The position numbers and the translations under genes were made by a program. Source: Candidatus Fermentibacterales bacterium (GTDB lineage Bacteria > Fermentibacterota > Fermentibacteria > Fermentibacterales > JAFGKQ01). From it: a stretch of DNA of 6,438 bases. The stretch lies in assembly GCA_016928495.1 (NCBI GenBank), contig JAFGKQ010000152.1, positions 1 through 6,438 of the forward strand. The letters run 5' to 3'. Below the pieces are notes generated by a model that saw only the letters and a program-made list of their open reading frames with translations, made no database searches and was not told the DNA's origin. The stretch's first letter is position 1; each line of letters begins with the position of its first letter. Of the stretch, positions 481-6,236 are shown piece by piece.

Positions 481-510
481 TTGCAGAAGGGCTTTCGGGT
501 GCCTTATGCT
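481..510 (+). promoter_or_regulatory. Candidate promoter for alr and the downstream operon
   Basis: TTGCAG (481-486), an 18-base spacer and TATGCT (505-510) resemble a sigma-70-type promoter, with 3/6 and 4/6 matches to consensus. The predicted transcription start, about 7 bases after the -10 box, falls at or next to the alr ATG at 518. The mRNA would then be leaderless, which agrees with the lack of a Shine-Dalgarno there. Only inspection supports this. Confidence 0.35.
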
Positions 511-517
511 TGCCCCT

Positions 518-1684
518 ATGGGTACTCTGGTCTGGGTCGAGCTCGACGCCGATGCTCCGGGTCACAACCTGAGAGAGCTGCGAGCATGCGCGGGCGAGGG
601 TGTGAAGCTCTGCGCGGTGGTGAAGTCGAACGCTTACGGTCATGGCGTGGAGCAGATGGTCCCTCTCCTGGACGACGCGGACTGGTTCGCCGTGAACTCC
701 CTGGACGAGGGCCTCGAGCTCCGCAGGCTGGGTGTCTCCAGGCCGGTCCTGCTCGTCGGCTACGTTCCTCTCGACCGCGTCGGAGAGGCCGTCGGGGCCG
801 GGCTCAGCATGACCGTGTTCAACGCCGAGACCATCAGGGCGCTGGCCGGGGCCTGCGGTGAACCGGGACAGGAGGCGAAGGTCCATCTCAAGGTCGAGAC
901 CGGAACCGGCCGCCAGGGCGTGCTGATGGAGGAGCTGGCCGACTTCGTGCGACTCGTCCACTCCACTCCTGGAGTGATTCTCGAGGGGCTGTCCACTCAC
1001 TACGCGAACATCGAGGACACGCTCAACCACAGCTACGCGGAGCAACAGCTCGCGGTCTTCGACGAAGCTCTGCAACTTGTCTGCTCTCTCGGCCCCAGGC
1101 CTCCGGTGGTGCACACCGCATGCTCGGCTGCCTCGATCCTTTTCCCCGAGACCCATTTCGACATGCTCAGGGCGGGGATCAGCGTCTACGGCCTCTGGCC
1201 TTCACGCGAGACCTACCTGTCCGCGCTTTCCGGAAGCGGTCCGGTGCCCGATCTGGTCCCCGTGCTCTCGCTGAAGACCCGCGTGGCACAGCTCAAGACT
1301 CTGCCGAGGGGATCCTGCGTCGGATACGGCTGCACCTTCAAGACATCCAGGAGCACCAGAGTCGCGGTGCTTCCCGTCGGGTACGCGGATGGATACGACA
1401 GGTCGCTTGGCAACAGAGCCTATGTCCTGGTGAGAGGACAGAGGGCGCCGGTCCTGGGCAGGATCTGCATGAACGTCGTCATGGCGGACGTCACGGACGT
1501 GGAGGGGGTGCAGCTCGAGGAAGAGGTGACTCTTCTCGGGAGGTCGGGCGATGAGCGCATAACGGCTGAGCTGATGGCGGAATGGGCCGCCACGATCAAC
1601 TACGAGGTCGTAACCAGGACAAGCCCGTTCCTGACGAGGAAGGTCGTCCGTGGCGGCGACGATCCCCGTGCGGGGCTGGCCTGA
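518..1684 (+). CDS. alr: Alanine racemase
   Basis: PLP-dependent fold type III racemase that interconverts L- and D-alanine in the cytoplasm, supplying D-alanine for peptidoglycan. The product from 518 is 388 residues, normal for the family. The N-terminal barrel has the PLP lysine in VVKSNAYGHG (K36). R132 lies in ETGTGRQG, H199 and S203 in HTACSAAS, and R218 in LRAGISVYG, which contacts the cofactor ring nitrogen. The C-terminal domain holds the second catalytic tyrosine in VGYGCTF (Y270), the PVGYADGY motif, GRICMN (317-319) and TINYEV (Y362). Asn follows CM where the best-known racemases have Asp; together with ETGTGRQG and THYANIEDT this looks like a recognisable racemase subgroup rather than damage. 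The start is uncertain: ATG 518 puts the protein directly before the conserved WVELD strand, ATG 506 is in frame, and neither has a Shine-Dalgarno. First gene of the plus-strand run. Confidence 0.95.
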   Translation: MGTLVWVELDADAPGHNLRELRACAGEGVKLCAVVKSNAYGHGVEQMVPLLDDADWFAVNSLDEGLELRRLGVSRPVLLVGYVPLDRVGEAVGAGLSMTVFNAETIRALAGACGEPGQEAKVHLKVETGTGRQGVLMEELADFVRLVHSTPGVILEGLSTHYANIEDTLNHSYAEQQLAVFDEALQLVCSLGPRPPVVHTACSAASILFPETHFDMLRAGISVYGLWPSRETYLSALSGSGPVPDLVPVLSLKTRVAQLKTLPRGSCVGYGCTFKTSRSTRVAVLPVGYADGYDRSLGNRAYVLVRGQRAPVLGRICMNVVMADVTDVEGVQLEEEVTLLGRSGDERITAELMAEWAATINYEVVTRTSPFLTRKVVRGGDDPRAGLA

Positions 1685-1703
1685 TCATCCGGGGCGGTAT
1701 CGC

Positions 1704-2465
1704 ATGACGATGGAAGTACTGGGATGCGACGGGGGGAAGCAGGAAGGCAAGTTCCTCGTCACGATGAGACTGGGGGATCGGGTCCTGCTGGATGCGGGCT
1801 CGGCAGCCAGCCTCAGCAACGAGGAGCAGAAGGCGGTCGAGAAGGTCCTGATCAGCCATGCCCACCTGGACCATGTGCATGAGCTGGGCTTCCTTGCCGA
1901 CACAAGACTGAGCCAGACCGACGCTTCGCTCGAGGTCTACGGCAGCCGGGCGGCCATCTCGATCATACGCGAGCACTACATGAACGATCTTCTCTGGCCG
2001 GACTTCAGCCGGATAGTCATGGACGGCACGCCCGCGATGATCTACAGGGAGTTCGTCGACTACGACTGGCTCGAGCTGGGAGACGGCCTTGCGATCATGC
2101 CGGTGCCCGTCAATCACGGCGCCGGAGGGCGAGGCTTCCTGATCAGGTCGAAGACGGCCTGCATAGCCTACAGCGGCGACACGGGACCCACGGAGGACAT
2201 CTGGCGGCTCGCCGCCGAGCAGGAGAACCTGGCCCTGGTGGTCGTGGAAGTCTCCTTCCCGGACGGCATGGAGAGCACCGCGCTCGCCAGCGATCACCTG
2301 ACCCCTTCGCTGCTCGCGACCGAGATGAAGAAGCTGGACAGGGACGTGCCCATCTACGCCTTCCACCTGAAGCCCTGGTTCCGGCACGAGATCGTGAGAG
2401 ACCTCTCCAGGCACTTCATTGACCGCGCGGTTCTGCTTCTGAGGGGTGAGCGGATAGAGTTCTAG
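1704..2465 (+). CDS. MBL-fold hydrolase resembling class II cyclic-nucleotide phosphodiesterase
   Basis: Metallo-beta-lactamase-fold protein of 253 residues, probably a cytoplasmic phosphodiesterase. The metal motif is SHAHLDH (H52, H54, D56, H57), followed by NH (H138), YSGDTGPT (D159), SDHLTP (H198) and FHLKP (H221), the expected set of two-metal ligands. Several details recall class II 3',5'-cyclic-nucleotide phosphodiesterases (PF02112, CpdP/PDE1 type): the LLDAGS strand, SGDTGPT followed by a W and then EVSFP, and the final HLTP and HLKP. The substrate is not proven; other MBL phosphodiesterases share much of this. I chose ATG 1704 because GGGGCGG at 1691-1697 sits 6 bases upstream and the gene then begins 19 bases after alr stops. 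A GTG at 1650 would extend it into alr with no conserved residues. ATG 1710 is also possible. Confidence 0.85.
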   Translation: MTMEVLGCDGGKQEGKFLVTMRLGDRVLLDAGSAASLSNEEQKAVEKVLISHAHLDHVHELGFLADTRLSQTDASLEVYGSRAAISIIREHYMNDLLWPDFSRIVMDGTPAMIYREFVDYDWLELGDGLAIMPVPVNHGAGGRGFLIRSKTACIAYSGDTGPTEDIWRLAAEQENLALVVVEVSFPDGMESTALASDHLTPSLLATEMKKLDRDVPIYAFHLKPWFRHEIVRDLSRHFIDRAVLLLRGERIEF

Positions 2466-2507
2466 CTTCCCGACCCGGCTCCGCGCGATGATGCCACGAC
2501 ACGGGGG

Positions 2508-3683
2508 ATGGAGGACCCGCAGTTGCTCAGGACTGGCCTGGACAGGGCAGCGGAGGCCGGCATGCCGGCAGGGAGGGCCGGTCTCCTGACACACTGCGCC
2601 GCGGTCGATTCGAACCTCAGGGAATCCCCCGAGGTCGTTCGAGAGATTCCGGGCATGGAGCTGGCAGCGGTCTTCGGACCCCAGCACGGCTACTACGGCC
2701 AGACGCAGGACAACATGGTCGAGTGGAGGGGCGGATCCCTCGAGAGGCTCGGAGTCCCGCTCTATAGCCTTTATGGAGAGGTCAGGCGGCCTGGCCCCGA
2801 CATGCTGGACGGCCTGGACCTGCTCCTGGTGGACCTCCAGGACGTCGGATCCAGGTACTACACCTACATCTATACCATGGCGCTGTCCATGAGGGCCGCT
2901 GCCGAGCAGGGGATACCGGTGATCGTGCTCGACCGGCCGAACCCGCTGGGCGGAAGGGTGGTGGAAGGCGCTACCCTGGACCCCGACTATTCCTCCTTCG
3001 TCGGCATGTACCCCATTCCGGTCAGGCACGCCCTGACCATCGGGGAGGCTGCGCAGTACTTCGCGTACCTGGACGGCCTGCCGGCGCCCATGGTCGTGGA
3101 GATGGAGGGCTGGTCCGCGGAGGGCTTTCAGGAAGAGCGCAGGTGGGTTCTTCCCTCCCCGAACATGCCTACCTCCGGCACCGCTCACGTATACCCCGGG
3201 ATGTGCCTGCTCGAGGGGACGAACGTGTCCGAGGGCAGAGGCACGACCAGGCCCTTCGAGATCTTCGGGGCGCCCTGGGTCGACGGATGGGAGCTGGCGG
3301 CACGCCTGAACGGGAGCCCCTGGCTGGAAGGAGCGTTGCTCAGGCCCCACGAGTTCATCCCGACCTTCGGCAAGCACGCCGGGGAGCCTTGTCGAGGCGC
3401 CCAGATCCATGTCCTGGACAGGGAGCGCTTCCGGCCTTTCAGGGCGGGGCTGGCGATCCTCGCGGAGCTCTGGACCTTCGTGGGCACATCGTGGAAGCAG
3501 CCCCCGTACGAGTACGAGACGGGGAAGCTCCCGATAGACATCCTCGCGGGAGGGACCGAGGTGAGGATCGCTGCGGAGACCCATGACGATGACGCTCTGG
3601 CACGGCTGTCCCGGGCCGATCTCGACGCATACCGGTCCAGCGTGTCTCCGTTCCTCATCTACGAAAGGGAGCTAATCCCTTGA
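2508..3683 (+). CDS. DUF1343 / NamZ-family exo-beta-N-acetylmuramidase-like protein
   Basis: Full-length member (391 residues) of DUF1343, the family of Bacillus subtilis NamZ (YbbC, GH171), which removes terminal N-acetylmuramic acid from peptidoglycan fragments. Family blocks appear in order: GPQHG (57-61) with QDNM (67-70), SLYG (87-90), DLQDVGSRYYTY (109-120), LDRPNP (141-146), RHALTIGE (173-180), PSPNMPT (216-222), EGTNVSEGRGTTRPFE (236-251), GAPW (254-257) and WKQPPYEYE (329-337). The PQHG...QDNM form differs from the commoner PEHG form and appears to mark a subgroup, from my memory of the family. There is no signal peptide, so the protein is predicted cytoplasmic, unlike secreted NamZ. 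The start is uncertain: ATG 2508 has only a G-run directly against it, whereas TTG 2523 has GGAGG (2510-2514) 8 bases upstream and would start the protein at LRTGLDR, close to the usual family start. It follows the MBL gene by 42 bases and overlaps the next gene by 4. Confidence 0.9.
   Translation: MEDPQLLRTGLDRAAEAGMPAGRAGLLTHCAAVDSNLRESPEVVREIPGMELAAVFGPQHGYYGQTQDNMVEWRGGSLERLGVPLYSLYGEVRRPGPDMLDGLDLLLVDLQDVGSRYYTYIYTMALSMRAAAEQGIPVIVLDRPNPLGGRVVEGATLDPDYSSFVGMYPIPVRHALTIGEAAQYFAYLDGLPAPMVVEMEGWSAEGFQEERRWVLPSPNMPTSGTAHVYPGMCLLEGTNVSEGRGTTRPFEIFGAPWVDGWELAARLNGSPWLEGALLRPHEFIPTFGKHAGEPCRGAQIHVLDRERFRPFRAGLAILAELWTFVGTSWKQPPYEYETGKLPIDILAGGTEVRIAAETHDDDALARLSRADLDAYRSSVSPFLIYERELIP
2510..2525 (+). 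promoter_or_regulatory. Shine-Dalgarno and alternative TTG start of the NamZ-like gene
   Basis: GGAGG at 2510-2514, 8 bases of spacer, then TTG at 2523-2525 in the NamZ-like reading frame. This pairing is better than anything before ATG 2508, and the next gene in the run also uses TTG. If correct, the protein is 386 residues. Confidence 0.45.
3664..3671 (+). promoter_or_regulatory. Shine-Dalgarno deciding the TTG start of the phosphoesterase
   Basis: AAAGGGAG, 8 bases before TTG 3680. It lies inside the last codons of the NamZ-like gene and supports initiation at the rare start codon that overlaps that gene's TGA stop. Confidence 0.65.
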
Positions 3684-4459
3684 GACTCGCAATCTTCGGC
3701 GACGTTCACGGGAACCTGCCCGGCCTCGAGGCAGCCTGGAGGACGCTCAGCTCCGAGGGATTCGATCTGGCCCTCTGCACCGGCGATCTGGTCCAGTACG
3801 GCCCCTGGCCGAACGAGGTGGTGAGCTTCTTCGTCGAGCACGACGTTGCGTGCGTGCAGGGCAACTGCGACAGAGCAGTGGGGAGATCCAGACGGGAGAC
3901 GGGTGACGACTTTCCGAACGCGCACTGGAAGGCCCTGGCCTGCAGGGCGCTGGAATGGACCTCGGACATCATCGAGGAACGGAGCAGGAAGTACCTCAGA
4001 GATCTTCCCGAGGAGCTGAGGTTCGCCGTGGGAAGGAGAGAGATCCTGCTGACTCACGGTCTTCCGGGAAGGGCCACCGTCGGATTCGAGCACGACACTC
4101 CGGGGGAGTCCGCAGACCTGCTCCTCCAGTCCGCCTCGGTTTCCCTGATGATCCTCGGGCACACTCACTCCCCTCTCCTCGTCACCCGTGAGAGAGGCTG
4201 GATAGTCAACCCCGGGAGCGTGGGGGGGGGCAGCCTCCCCGGAGCGGGAACGGCAGCCCTCGTCGAGATGGACGAGCGGAAGGAGCGCATGAGCGTTGCC
4301 TTCTACAGGGTATCCTGGGATCGGGAGAGGTACGTTCGGGAATACGAGAGGGCGGGTCTGCCGGACATCTTCCTGAGGTGTCTTCTGCTGGGCAGGGATC
4401 CCAGGGGTCGCTGGCATACCGAAGATCACAGATGGAGGCAGCGATGGGCAGAACGATGA
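3680..4459 (+). CDS. Calcineurin-like metallophosphoesterase (YfcE/MJ0936-like)
   Basis: Cytoplasmic two-metal phosphoesterase of 259 residues. Metal and catalytic motifs occur in the standard order: GDVHGN (D8, H10), GDLVQYGP (D36), GNCD (N62), LLTHG (H126), GHTH (H161, H163) and NPGSVG (177-182). This matches the small single-domain phosphodiesterase group around YfcE and MJ0936 (PF12850 type). The true substrate is unknown; members hydrolyse artificial phosphodiesters. The start is TTG at 3680, forming a TTGA stop/start overlap with the upstream gene and served by the AAAGGGAG at 3664-3671. The core fold should end near residue 205. The last 30 or so residues are rich in Arg and Trp and unlike the family core, and the DNA there also carries the ribosome binding site of the next gene. 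A run of nine G at 4222-4230 encodes glycines after NPGSV. It overlaps the following gene by 16 bases. Confidence 0.9.
   Translation: MRLAIFGDVHGNLPGLEAAWRTLSSEGFDLALCTGDLVQYGPWPNEVVSFFVEHDVACVQGNCDRAVGRSRRETGDDFPNAHWKALACRALEWTSDIIEERSRKYLRDLPEELRFAVGRREILLTHGLPGRATVGFEHDTPGESADLLLQSASVSLMILGHTHSPLLVTRERGWIVNPGSVGGGSLPGAGTAALVEMDERKERMSVAFYRVSWDRERYVREYERAGLPDIFLRCLLLGRDPRGRWHTEDHRWRQRWAER
4434..4438 (+). promoter_or_regulatory. Shine-Dalgarno of the LeuC-like gene
   Basis: GGAGG, 5 bases before ATG 4444, located within the last codons of the phosphoesterase. It selects 4444 over in-frame ATGs at 4432, which would begin before the site, and 4456, which is 17 bases away. Confidence 0.6.
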
Positions 4460-5709
4460 TCGAGAAGATGCTCGGGAGTCATGGGGGAGGAGACTGCGGA
4501 CCCGGGGACATCATCTGGCTGGAGGTGGACAACCGGACCGCCCGTGACTTCGCCGGCGCGAACGTGGTTGCCAACCTCGAGCAGTACGGCGGGGAGAAGC
4601 CGATCGAAGACCCGGGGAAGACCTTCTTCACGTTCGACTGCAACGTTCCGGCCAACACCATTCCATACGCCAACAACCAGCACCGCATCCGGATGTTCGC
4701 GAGGAAGCACGGCCTGCGGGTCTACGATGTCGACTACGGCATAGGCTCGCACGTGCTGATAGAGGAGAAGCTGGCAGGGCCGGGCAGCACGACCGTGGGC
4801 ACCGACAGCCATCTGAACATCATGGGCGCGGTGGGTGCGTTCGGGCAGGGGATGGGCGATCTGGACATCGCCTTCACCTTCAAGACGGGCACTACATGGT
4901 TCGAGGTGCCTCCATCCGTTCGGATCGACCTGACCGGTACTCCCTCGAGCGACGAGGTCGAAGCCAAGGACCTCGCACTGCTTCTGCTCGGCAGGTTCAG
5001 GGGCCACGAGCTCCTGGGAAGGTCGGTGGAGATCTACGGCGACTGGGTGGAGCGTGCCAGCCTCGAAGACTGCATAACGGTGGCGAGCCAGGCGACCGAG
5101 ATGGGAGCCATCATCGCGCTGTTCCCTCCTAACGCCAGCGTGCTGGGCCATTTCGGGATGAGCAGGGAGGAGGCCGTCTACGCGGACCCGGACGCGTCCT
5201 ACCAGGCGACCTACGAGGTGGGCATCTCCGAGCTCGAGCCGCTGGTGGCCTGCCCGCCCGGTCCGACGAACGTAAGACCCGTCTCGGGCTTCACCGAGCC
5301 AGTGCCTGTGGACAGCGTCTTCCTGGGAAGCTGCACCAACGGCACGCTCCAGGACATGGAGCTGGCGGCAAGGCTGCTCGAGGGCCGGAAGGTCCACCCG
5401 GGCGTCATGCTGAGGGTGGTGCCCGCCACCAGGAAGGTCTGGGGGGAGATGCTGAGAAGAGGTCTCCTCGACATCATCTTCGAGGCTGGCGGGATTCTGA
5501 GCAATCCGGGCTGTGGCGGCTGCGCCGCCGGGCAGATCGGCATGACCGGCAGGGGAGAGGTGCAGATCAGCACTTCCAACAGGAACTTCACGGGCAAGCA
5601 GGGCGATGGCGACACCTATCTTGCCGGCGTGGGAACGGCCGTGGCGTCGGCGGTGCTGGGAAGGCTGGCATCGGTACACGACCTGCAGGCGAAGGGAGGC
5701 CGCCGATGA
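4444..5709 (+). CDS. Aconitase-superfamily hydro-lyase, large subunit (LeuC/HacA-like, atypical)
   Basis: Large subunit (421 residues) of a two-subunit [4Fe-4S] hydro-lyase related to 3-isopropylmalate dehydratase and homoaconitase. The N-terminus MGRTMIEKML is the usual family start. Cluster cysteines are visible as SCTNG (C297) and PGCGGC (C357, C360). Other landmarks are GTDSHLN (119-125), GAFGQGMGDLD, and STSNRNFTGKQG near the C-terminus. Several positions differ from classical LeuC: RDFAGA (34-39) where HDVTGP is usual, FDC (64-66) where the catalytic pair is DH, GIGSHV (99-104) where GICHQV is usual, and TDSHL for TDSHT. The changes cluster at active-site motifs while the cluster ligands are kept, so this looks like a distinct functional clade, not decay. 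The substrate is not predictable; no leuA or leuB is adjacent. ATG 4444 has GGAGG 5 bases upstream; the longer frame back to 4378 is unconserved. Its stop overlaps the small-subunit start by ATGA. Confidence 0.88.
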   Translation: MGRTMIEKMLGSHGGGDCGPGDIIWLEVDNRTARDFAGANVVANLEQYGGEKPIEDPGKTFFTFDCNVPANTIPYANNQHRIRMFARKHGLRVYDVDYGIGSHVLIEEKLAGPGSTTVGTDSHLNIMGAVGAFGQGMGDLDIAFTFKTGTTWFEVPPSVRIDLTGTPSSDEVEAKDLALLLLGRFRGHELLGRSVEIYGDWVERASLEDCITVASQATEMGAIIALFPPNASVLGHFGMSREEAVYADPDASYQATYEVGISELEPLVACPPGPTNVRPVSGFTEPVPVDSVFLGSCTNGTLQDMELAARLLEGRKVHPGVMLRVVPATRKVWGEMLRRGLLDIIFEAGGILSNPGCGGCAAGQIGMTGRGEVQISTSNRNFTGKQGDGDTYLAGVGTAVASAVLGRLASVHDLQAKGGRR

Positions 5710-6236
5710 CCCGTCCGGTGCGGCTCGAAGGCAGGGTCTGGGTTCTCGAAAGAGACGGCAGGCTCATAGACGACATAGATACCGACATGATCTACCACAA
5801 CGCCCATCTTGCCGTGACGGAAGCATCGCAGATGGGGCAGTACGCACTTGGCAACCTCAAGGGCTTTTCTGACTTCGCATCGAAGGCTTCCGCAGGCGAC
5901 CTCGTTCTGGCGGGGGACAACTTCGGATCCGGCAGCTCCAGGCAGCACGCCGTGGACTGCTTCATCTCTTTGGGAATCCTGGCGATCATGGCCAGGTCCT
6001 TCGGTGCGATTTACAAGCGGAACGCCATCAACTCGGGTCTCGCCCTCGTCGAGGTCCCCGGGCTGCCGGACGGCCTGATAGAACACCACGAGACCGTCGC
6101 GCTGGATCTGGAGACAGGATACCTGAGTGTTGGCTCAGGTGAGTTCCATGCGAGACCCATGAGCAGTGTCTCAAGAGATATCTACCTCGCCGGAGGCCTG
6201 TTCGAGTACGCCAGGACAAGGGAGCCACGGGCCTGA
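5706..6236 (+). CDS. Aconitase-superfamily hydro-lyase, small subunit (LeuD/HacB-like)
   Basis: Swivelling-domain subunit (176 residues) that completes the active site of the preceding large subunit. It is the length expected of the short LeuD/HacB type. IDDIDTDMIY (21-30) is the N-terminal IDTD motif. GDNFGSGSSRQHA (70-82) corresponds to the GxNFGxGSSREHA loop, with the base serine (S77) and substrate arginine (R79) kept but Glu changed to Gln at 80. SFGAIYKRNAINSG (98-111) is the conserved helix and turn. The specificity loop after IDTD reads IYHNAHLAV rather than a typical IPMI or homoaconitase sequence, in line with an unusual substrate. AAGGGAGG at 5692-5699 lies 6 bases before the ATG, which overlaps the large-subunit TGA, so the subunits should be made in matched amounts. 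Last gene of the run; no strong terminator follows. Confidence 0.88.
   Translation: MTRPVRLEGRVWVLERDGRLIDDIDTDMIYHNAHLAVTEASQMGQYALGNLKGFSDFASKASAGDLVLAGDNFGSGSSRQHAVDCFISLGILAIMARSFGAIYKRNAINSGLALVEVPGLPDGLIEHHETVALDLETGYLSVGSGEFHARPMSSVSRDIYLAGGLFEYARTREPRA

Follow-up and report, generated by a model that had tools for sequence, protein, structure and literature searches.

What does a LeuCD-like protein pair act on when residues usually fixed in the aconitase family have been replaced in both of its subunits? The question is raised by contig JAFGKQ010000152.1 of a Candidatus Fermentibacteria-type metagenome-assembled genome (MAG) (G000; 2.3 Mb, 81% complete), which was analysed over its entire length of 6,438 bases (the window). 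The pair comprises a large subunit (LS) and a small subunit (SS), the genes of which overlap by ATGA and follow ribosome-binding sequences (GGAGG before the LS ATG at position 4444 and AGGGAGG before the SS start). Both proteins belong to a deep and apparently undescribed clade of the aconitase family, which occurs in many uncultured anaerobes, bacterial as well as archaeal. The clade belongs to a gene module tied to a new type of isocitrate dehydrogenase (IDH)-like protein, and its gene neighbourhoods and co-occurrence with this protein make it probable that the clade enzyme serves an unusual version of the step between citrate and isocitrate in central metabolism.

Profile matches, fold, the three cluster cysteines and the Ser-Arg pair of the swivel domain place LS and SS in the aconitase superfamily (PF00330 and PF00694). 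LS falls below the cut-offs of the LeuC models (274.5 bits against 610.65 for TIGR02083, 356.1 against 410.15 for TIGR02086 and 363.2 against 385 for PRK00402, its best NCBIfam match) and of homoaconitase, the models NF040615 and NF040604 giving 258.7 against 550 and 90.4 against 230 bits for the pair, while SS passes that of the LeuD/DmdB family TIGR02087 marginally (109.2 against 108.95 bits). The AlphaFold2 model of LS has a predicted local distance difference test score of 94 and matches MJ1003 (4kp2, 0.90) and MJ0499 with template-modelling (TM) scores of 0.89–0.90 at 31–33% identity. In the source genome, at its 81% completeness, LS is the sole large subunit of the superfamily detected. 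The pair is best read as a predicted two-subunit [4Fe-4S] hydro-lyase; that it hydrates or dehydrates an acid, and which acid, is an inference, as the base Ser and the cluster ligands are retained but the His relays are not.

The active site was compared in alignments of LS (90 clade and 30 non-clade sequences) and SS (82 clade and 37 other sequences), and pig aconitase residue numbers are used for the positions that align with them. The motifs and numbers given for this pair in the initial annotation proved exact, both in LS (R34-D35, F64-D65-C66, G99-I-G-S-H103, T120-D-S-H-L124, C297, C357 and C360) and in the SS translation (I24-D-T-D, I29-Y-H-N-A-H-L35 and G76-S-S-R-Q80). R34 is present in all 90 clade LS, the other 30 having His (23), Gln (4) or Asn (3). 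The His101 position is occupied by Cys (66), Leu (12) or Thr (12) in the clade and by His in 29 of the 30 others. Cys-His147-Gln has become Gly-Ser/Thr-His, with G101, S/T102 and H103 in 90/90 clade LS and CHQ or EH elsewhere, and the Arg452 position is Lys in 90/90 compared with Arg in 29/30. Additional changes, beyond those of the initial annotation, are N258 to S215, A/V to T218 and R452 to K385, all invariant in LS, and PG to HN (31–32) and ARIFYRN to GAIYKRN (100–106) in SS. All 82 clade SS carry HN and GSSRQ, and GAIY.RN replaces ARIF.RN without exception or nearly so. The three cluster cysteines, Asp100, Asp165-Ser166-His167, Glu262 and Arg447 are retained in LS, as is GSSR in SS, including the equivalents of Arg644 and of Ser642, the general base of the superfamily (PMC8184944). 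Conservation this strict of both the replaced and the retained positions, over two domains of life, means that the function is selected and is not the product of decay.

The substitutions had been predicted to mark a clade and not a local mutant, and this is borne out, as the same or equivalent residues occur in 90/90 LS and in the 82 SS. Clade membership was set at 47% identity, a threshold picked from a gap in the data. Same-order relatives hold a protein 66–73% identical to LS, and most also hold a separate canonical LeuC-like protein (33–38% identity). A clade-profile scan of 84,980 species genomes gave at least 565 confirmed stretches. The best 80 come from Fermentibacteria, Eisenbacteria, Bipolaricaulota/Acetothermia, Riflebacteria/Ozemobacter, Chloroflexi, Coatesbacteria, Zixibacteria, Cloacimonadota, Aminicenantes, WOR-3, KSB1, LCP-89, Sumerlaeota, Thermoplasmata and Heimdall-, Hod- and Borrarchaeota; the clade spans more than 15 bacterial and archaeal lineages. 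In the maximum-likelihood tree all 66 clade sequences lie on one side of a branch of 1.18 changes per site with 100/100 support, so the separate clade anticipated by the initial annotation was recovered with the same substitutions and without grouping with LeuCD or homoaconitase. E. coli LeuC and the Aquifex-type aconitases form long branches, and the tree leaves the nearest sister group of the clade unsettled; the best reading is of a deep branch of its own, which would lie beside that of LeuCD and homoaconitase. No description of the clade was found in the open-access literature searched.

A substrate other than isopropylmalate or homocitrate had also been proposed, and both this tree and the genome content, in which the source genome has no LeuA or other HMGL-type synthase, agree with it. 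Each element of the LeuC catalytic set (HD, DH, GxCHQ, SDSHT and R452) is replaced in the clade, and the SS Arg of the homoaconitase YLR loop is Ala or His. No protein of the HMGL-type family (LeuA, homocitrate synthase and Re-citrate synthase) was detected at E 1e-20 in the source genome or in 14 other Fermentibacteria; MAGs are incomplete and single gene absences carry little weight, but this absence holds in relatives that are 95–97% complete as well as in the source genome at 81%. Leucine, homocitrate, citramalate-synthase and Re-citrate routes were accordingly rejected for Fermentibacteria. In many clade genomes, including the source genome, no PF00180 protein other than the IDH-like one was found at E 1e-15, so LeuB is missing there too. 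Most Fermentibacteria have a second, canonical LeuCD paralogue (LeuC2 and LeuD2), and in three genomes (G070, G066 and G088) a separate LeuC adjoins LeuA, such that the leucine operon uses that LeuC and not the clade LS. Family-level annotation as LeuC/LeuD or homoaconitase would thus wrongly assign leucine synthesis to many uncultured anaerobes and Asgard-related archaea.

Other standard roles were also discarded. The lyase partner of 2,3-dimethylmalate dehydratase DmdAB (PF13714, PEP-mutase/ICL family) is absent from the source genome and nearly all clade genomes examined. Class I fumarase is present in 30 of 34 genomes, the source genome included, which argues against a fumarase substitute. 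An isocitrate-lyase partner was seen only in clade-less genomes or was not adjacent. The methylcitrate cycle was rejected because methylisocitrate, as a tertiary alcohol, could not be oxidised by an IDH-like enzyme. LS lacks the canonical aconitase residues His101 and His147, and a role as the sole aconitase of genomes with citrate synthase was rejected because most Fermentibacteria have no citrate synthase.

Neighbouring genes were searched for by tblastn at 66 distant clade loci, with 0.26 hits for each gene expected by chance (2.7 Mb genome). SS was found at 54 of the loci, the IDH-like gene at 18, LeuD2 at 12, an HD-domain protein (HD) at 8 and LeuC2 at 5. The six genes, LS included, occur together repeatedly in Bipolaricaulota, Aminicenantes, Zixibacteria, Chloroflexi and Asgard-related archaea. 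Recurrent orders include LeuD2-IDH-LS-SS in Bipolaricaulota and Aminicenantes, HD-LeuC2-LeuD2...IDH...LS-SS in Zixibacteria and, with coenzyme A (CoA)-dependent enzymes, CoA-ligase-citryl-CoA lyase-HD-LS-SS-LeuC2-LeuD2-IDH in an Anaerolineae locus (L125); genes for CoA ligase and citryl-CoA lyase lie upstream of HD in both L125 and L187. The module genes are scattered in Fermentibacteria, where the IDH-like gene is followed by HD (L177, source genome) and LeuC2D2 is beside GlmM-GlmS. At a threshold of 54% identity, picked from a gap in the data, the IDH-like protein is present in 54 of 57 clade-positive and 7 of 25 clade-negative genomes (Fisher 8e-10, relatedness being ignored, which inflates the significance); the genome profile searches covered chosen families.

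The IDH-like protein retains S113, R119, R129, R153, Y160, K230, D283, D307 and D311 of E. coli Icd and has the nicotinamide adenine dinucleotide phosphate (NADP) motif HG(S/T)APKYAG; neither Ser113 nor the NADP-type loop is found in LeuB or DmlA. The citrate-type lyases that accompany the module are of three kinds: citryl-CoA-lyase-like proteins, ATP-citrate lyase and a CitD-CitE fusion, which CitF may or may not join. All nine clade-positive Fermentibacteria tested have the fusion, as against none of the three clade-negative ones, which also lack the IDH-like protein and an intact LeuC2. Fermentibacteria are mostly without citrate synthase, and those without it carry the fusion. CitF is in the same cluster as CitD-CitE in some genomes and is immediately upstream of LeuC2 in G061. 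Three clade-less genomes (G002, G008 and G053) have LeuC2 adjacent to a gene of the isocitrate/methylisocitrate-lyase family, which in G002 and G053 also adjoins the IDH-like gene. Taken together, the IDH-like residues, the lyase-family gene near LeuC2 and the citrate-type lyases point to an acid of the citrate/aconitate/isocitrate type.

Several features of these partners were observed in addition. The IDH-like proteins (L120:6874-7998; source genome L177:6103-7437) form a distinct NADP-type family that is common in uncultured anaerobes and has SPIVxLRQ instead of SLNVALRQ, with an insertion ahead of the motif. The CitD-CitE fusion consists of a carrier-like N-domain and a citrate-lyase beta part (source genome L237:14300-15502, contig C299, minus strand; also L239, L240, L241, L242, L243, L245, L246 and L247), and Lys or some other residue stands where E. 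coli CitD (LESGD) has the Ser that carries the prosthetic group. Near the citryl-CoA lyase of L125 is a succinyl-/citryl-CoA-synthetase-beta-like ATP-grasp protein with a C-terminal Cys-rich ferredoxin-like tail (L125:3875-5527). In the Fermentibacteria genome G011, which has neither the clade nor the IDH-like protein, a LeuC2 homologue (L066:5866-7131) is devoid of catalytic residues and of part of the cluster-Cys motif.

Our leading proposal, to which we give slightly less than even odds, is that LS-SS acts with LeuC2D2 and the IDH-like protein at a citrate/aconitate/isocitrate-type node, probably performing one half-reaction in a rebuilt active site. The substrate would be a tricarboxylate of this type, the co-workers would be the canonical LeuC2D2 and the NADP-type IDH-like dehydrogenase, and LS-SS would most likely perform either the dehydration or the hydration half of the isomerisation. 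As in aconitase, SS Ser78 (Ser642) would abstract the proton as the base, and the open iron would act as Lewis acid. A new arrangement centred on R34, H103, S215 and K385 would take over from the His101/His147 proton relay, with R34, R380 and K385 as putative carboxylate anchors and H103 or the retained D121-H123 as the proton donor. Such a route would connect 2-oxoglutarate with oxaloacetate and acetyl units, and citryl-CoA lyase, ATP-citrate lyase or a CitDE-type lyase would cleave or form the citrate. A precedent is the homocitrate isomerisation of fungi and Thermus, which is split between aconitase and homoaconitase (PMC3556520); there, as proposed for the clade, two aconitase-family enzymes share one isomerisation that feeds a decarboxylating dehydrogenase, whereas most clade genomes tested lack homocitrate synthase and their dehydrogenase is IDH-like at residue 113. 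It is possible but doubtful that these proteins form an undescribed anaerobic route linking 2-oxoglutarate to citrate-type acids, with the isomerisation divided between LeuC2D2 and the clade enzyme, whose rebuilt catalytic site is without His101 and His147, and with HD, the new NADP-type IDH and CitD-CitE or citryl-CoA lyase taking part. If true, a citrate-isocitrate route would help to explain the 2-oxoglutarate-acetyl link in lineages without citrate synthase or ordinary aconitase.

A number of observations weigh against a split citrate-isocitrate step. An ordinary aconitase is encoded as well in about half of the distant clade genomes, which led us to reject LS-SS as their sole aconitase; several of these have ATP-citrate lyase and some a classical IDH (cf. 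PMC8542988), and a second citrate route would therefore be redundant there. Because ordinary aconitase coexists with the clade and Fermentibacteria are mostly without citrate synthase, the module does not simply stand in for a missing aconitase; coexistence could be explained if a reductive route that cleaves citrate is separated from an oxidative one, or if the acid is another, such as citramalate. Icd N115 is Ile in the IDH-like protein, so isocitrate is its likely but not certain substrate. The CitDE of Fermentibacteria is without CitF and has a changed carrier Ser position. LeuC2 keeps all canonical residues and could by itself carry out both half-reactions, and the loss of His101 and His147 could mean that the clade has no aconitase chemistry whatever.

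It is unlikely, though worth weighing, that the module handles a different malate-type acid, for example citramalate/3-methylmalate, with a CitDEF-like lyase and the IDH-like protein as 3-methylmalate dehydrogenase, or a longer homologue. The general lack of citrate and HMGL-type synthases in Fermentibacteria, their CitDE-like lyase as a candidate for another acid, the ordinary aconitase and IDH of many clade genomes and the altered pocket implied by R34 and the HN loop would all fit, but the IDH-like active site is isocitrate-type (S113, YAGVE), unlike LeuB or DmlA, and the lyases linked in other phyla are citryl-CoA-lyase-like. A complete alternative aconitase, with LS-SS alone interconverting citrate and isocitrate and LeuC2D2 serving another step, is rather improbable: LS-SS does lie beside citryl-CoA lyase-HD genes in Chloroflexi and directly after the IDH-like gene in several phyla, and some genomes have the latter as the only PF00180 protein found, but the clade has lost His101, His147 and Arg452, each of which almost every non-clade homologue in the comparison has, and LeuC2D2 adjoins citryl-CoA lyase and the IDH-like gene too. 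Replacement of two catalytic His in every member and near-obligate co-occurrence with the other module genes might instead indicate a regulatory, Fe-S-sensing or assembly partner of LeuC2D2 or the IDH-like protein and not a free-standing hydro-lyase; we consider this very improbable, as the cluster Cys, the base Ser and the Arg644, Asp165, His167 and Glu262 positions are invariant and would not be needed by a non-enzyme. That the pair is a standard isopropylmalate isomerase or homoaconitase whose residues have drifted, as the generic family matches and the 34–38% identity to LeuC-like proteins of relatives might suggest, is scarcely credible given the scores under curated cut-offs, and is already contradicted by the absence of LeuA and homocitrate synthase from 15 Fermentibacteria and by the separate LeuC beside LeuA.

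Among known systems, the methanogen pairs MJ0499-MJ1277 (isopropylmalate/citramalate isomerase) and MJ1003-MJ1271 (homoaconitase) share with the clade separate subunits of similar lengths, the fold, the three cluster Cys and GSSR. They differ from it at 31–33% identity, the clade having RD for HD, DCN for DHQ, GSH for CHQ and Lys for R452 in LS, and HLAV or YLHI for YLVY/YLRT and GSSRQ for GSSRE in SS. The aconitases (mitochondrial, AcnA, AcnB and Aquifex-type TIGR01342) have the same fold and equivalents of Asp100, Asp165-Ser166-His167, Glu262, Arg447, Ser642, Ser643 and Arg644; in contrast, the clade enzyme is of two subunits with approximately 30% identity, and in it Gln72 is Arg, His101 is lost, His147 is shifted or lost, Asn258 is Ser and Arg452 is Lys. 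Aconitase X (cis-3-hydroxyproline or mevalonate 5-phosphate dehydratase) is likewise a superfamily branch with altered canonical active-site residues and took a new substrate (PMC8184944), but it has other cluster ligands and a distant structure (TM 0.51–0.59), whereas the clade keeps all three Cys. With His101, His147 and Arg452 replaced and Ser642 and the cluster ligands kept, the clade offers a natural experiment on the residues that aconitase chemistry really needs.

Table 1 Coordinates of features in the window (plain numbers) and of lyase-family genes at other loci.
Feature	Position	Strand	Basis
LS, remodelled LeuC/aconitase-type [4Fe-4S] hydro-lyase large subunit, 421 aa	4444..5709	+	PF00330, 225 bits
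SS, remodelled LeuD-type swivel domain, 176 aa	5706..6236	+	TIGR02087, PF00694
TARDF, LS residues 32–36, R34 replacing Gln72 (aconitase) or His (LeuC)	4537..4551	+	Alignment
D65-C66, Asp100 retained, His101 replaced	4636..4641	+	Alignment
G99-I-G-S-H103, His147 to Ser/Thr, His one residue downstream	4738..4752	+	Alignment
K385 replacing Arg452	5596..5598	+	Alignment
Alanine racemase (alr), inferred start codon, opens the locally conserved gene order	506..1684	+	PF01168, PF00842
Metallo-beta-lactamase (MBL)-fold hydrolase	1704..2465	+	Family match, conserved order
NamZ exo-beta-N-acetylmuramidase	2508..3683	+	PF07075, PF20732, conserved order
Calcineurin-like phosphoesterase	3680..4459	+	PF12850, conserved order
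Isocitrate/methylisocitrate-lyase-family gene (G053)	L178:9426-10490		
Isocitrate/methylisocitrate-lyase-family gene (G008)	L060:2471-3481		
Isocitrate/methylisocitrate-lyase-family gene (G002)	G002:C147:19297-20019		

The order alr - MBL hydrolase - NamZ - phosphoesterase - LS - SS (window 506-4459 for the first four) is kept across Fermentibacteria genera (L032-L050). In Cloacimonadota an M23 peptidoglycan endopeptidase gene lies between LS and SS (L114:5663-7252; L117, L118, L131, L134 and L135). A cell-wall role, to which the alr, NamZ, GlmS and M23 neighbours might point, was rejected because the clade occurs in archaea too and these neighbours therefore look local. One genome, G036, has two clade LS copies on separate contigs (L015 and L050).

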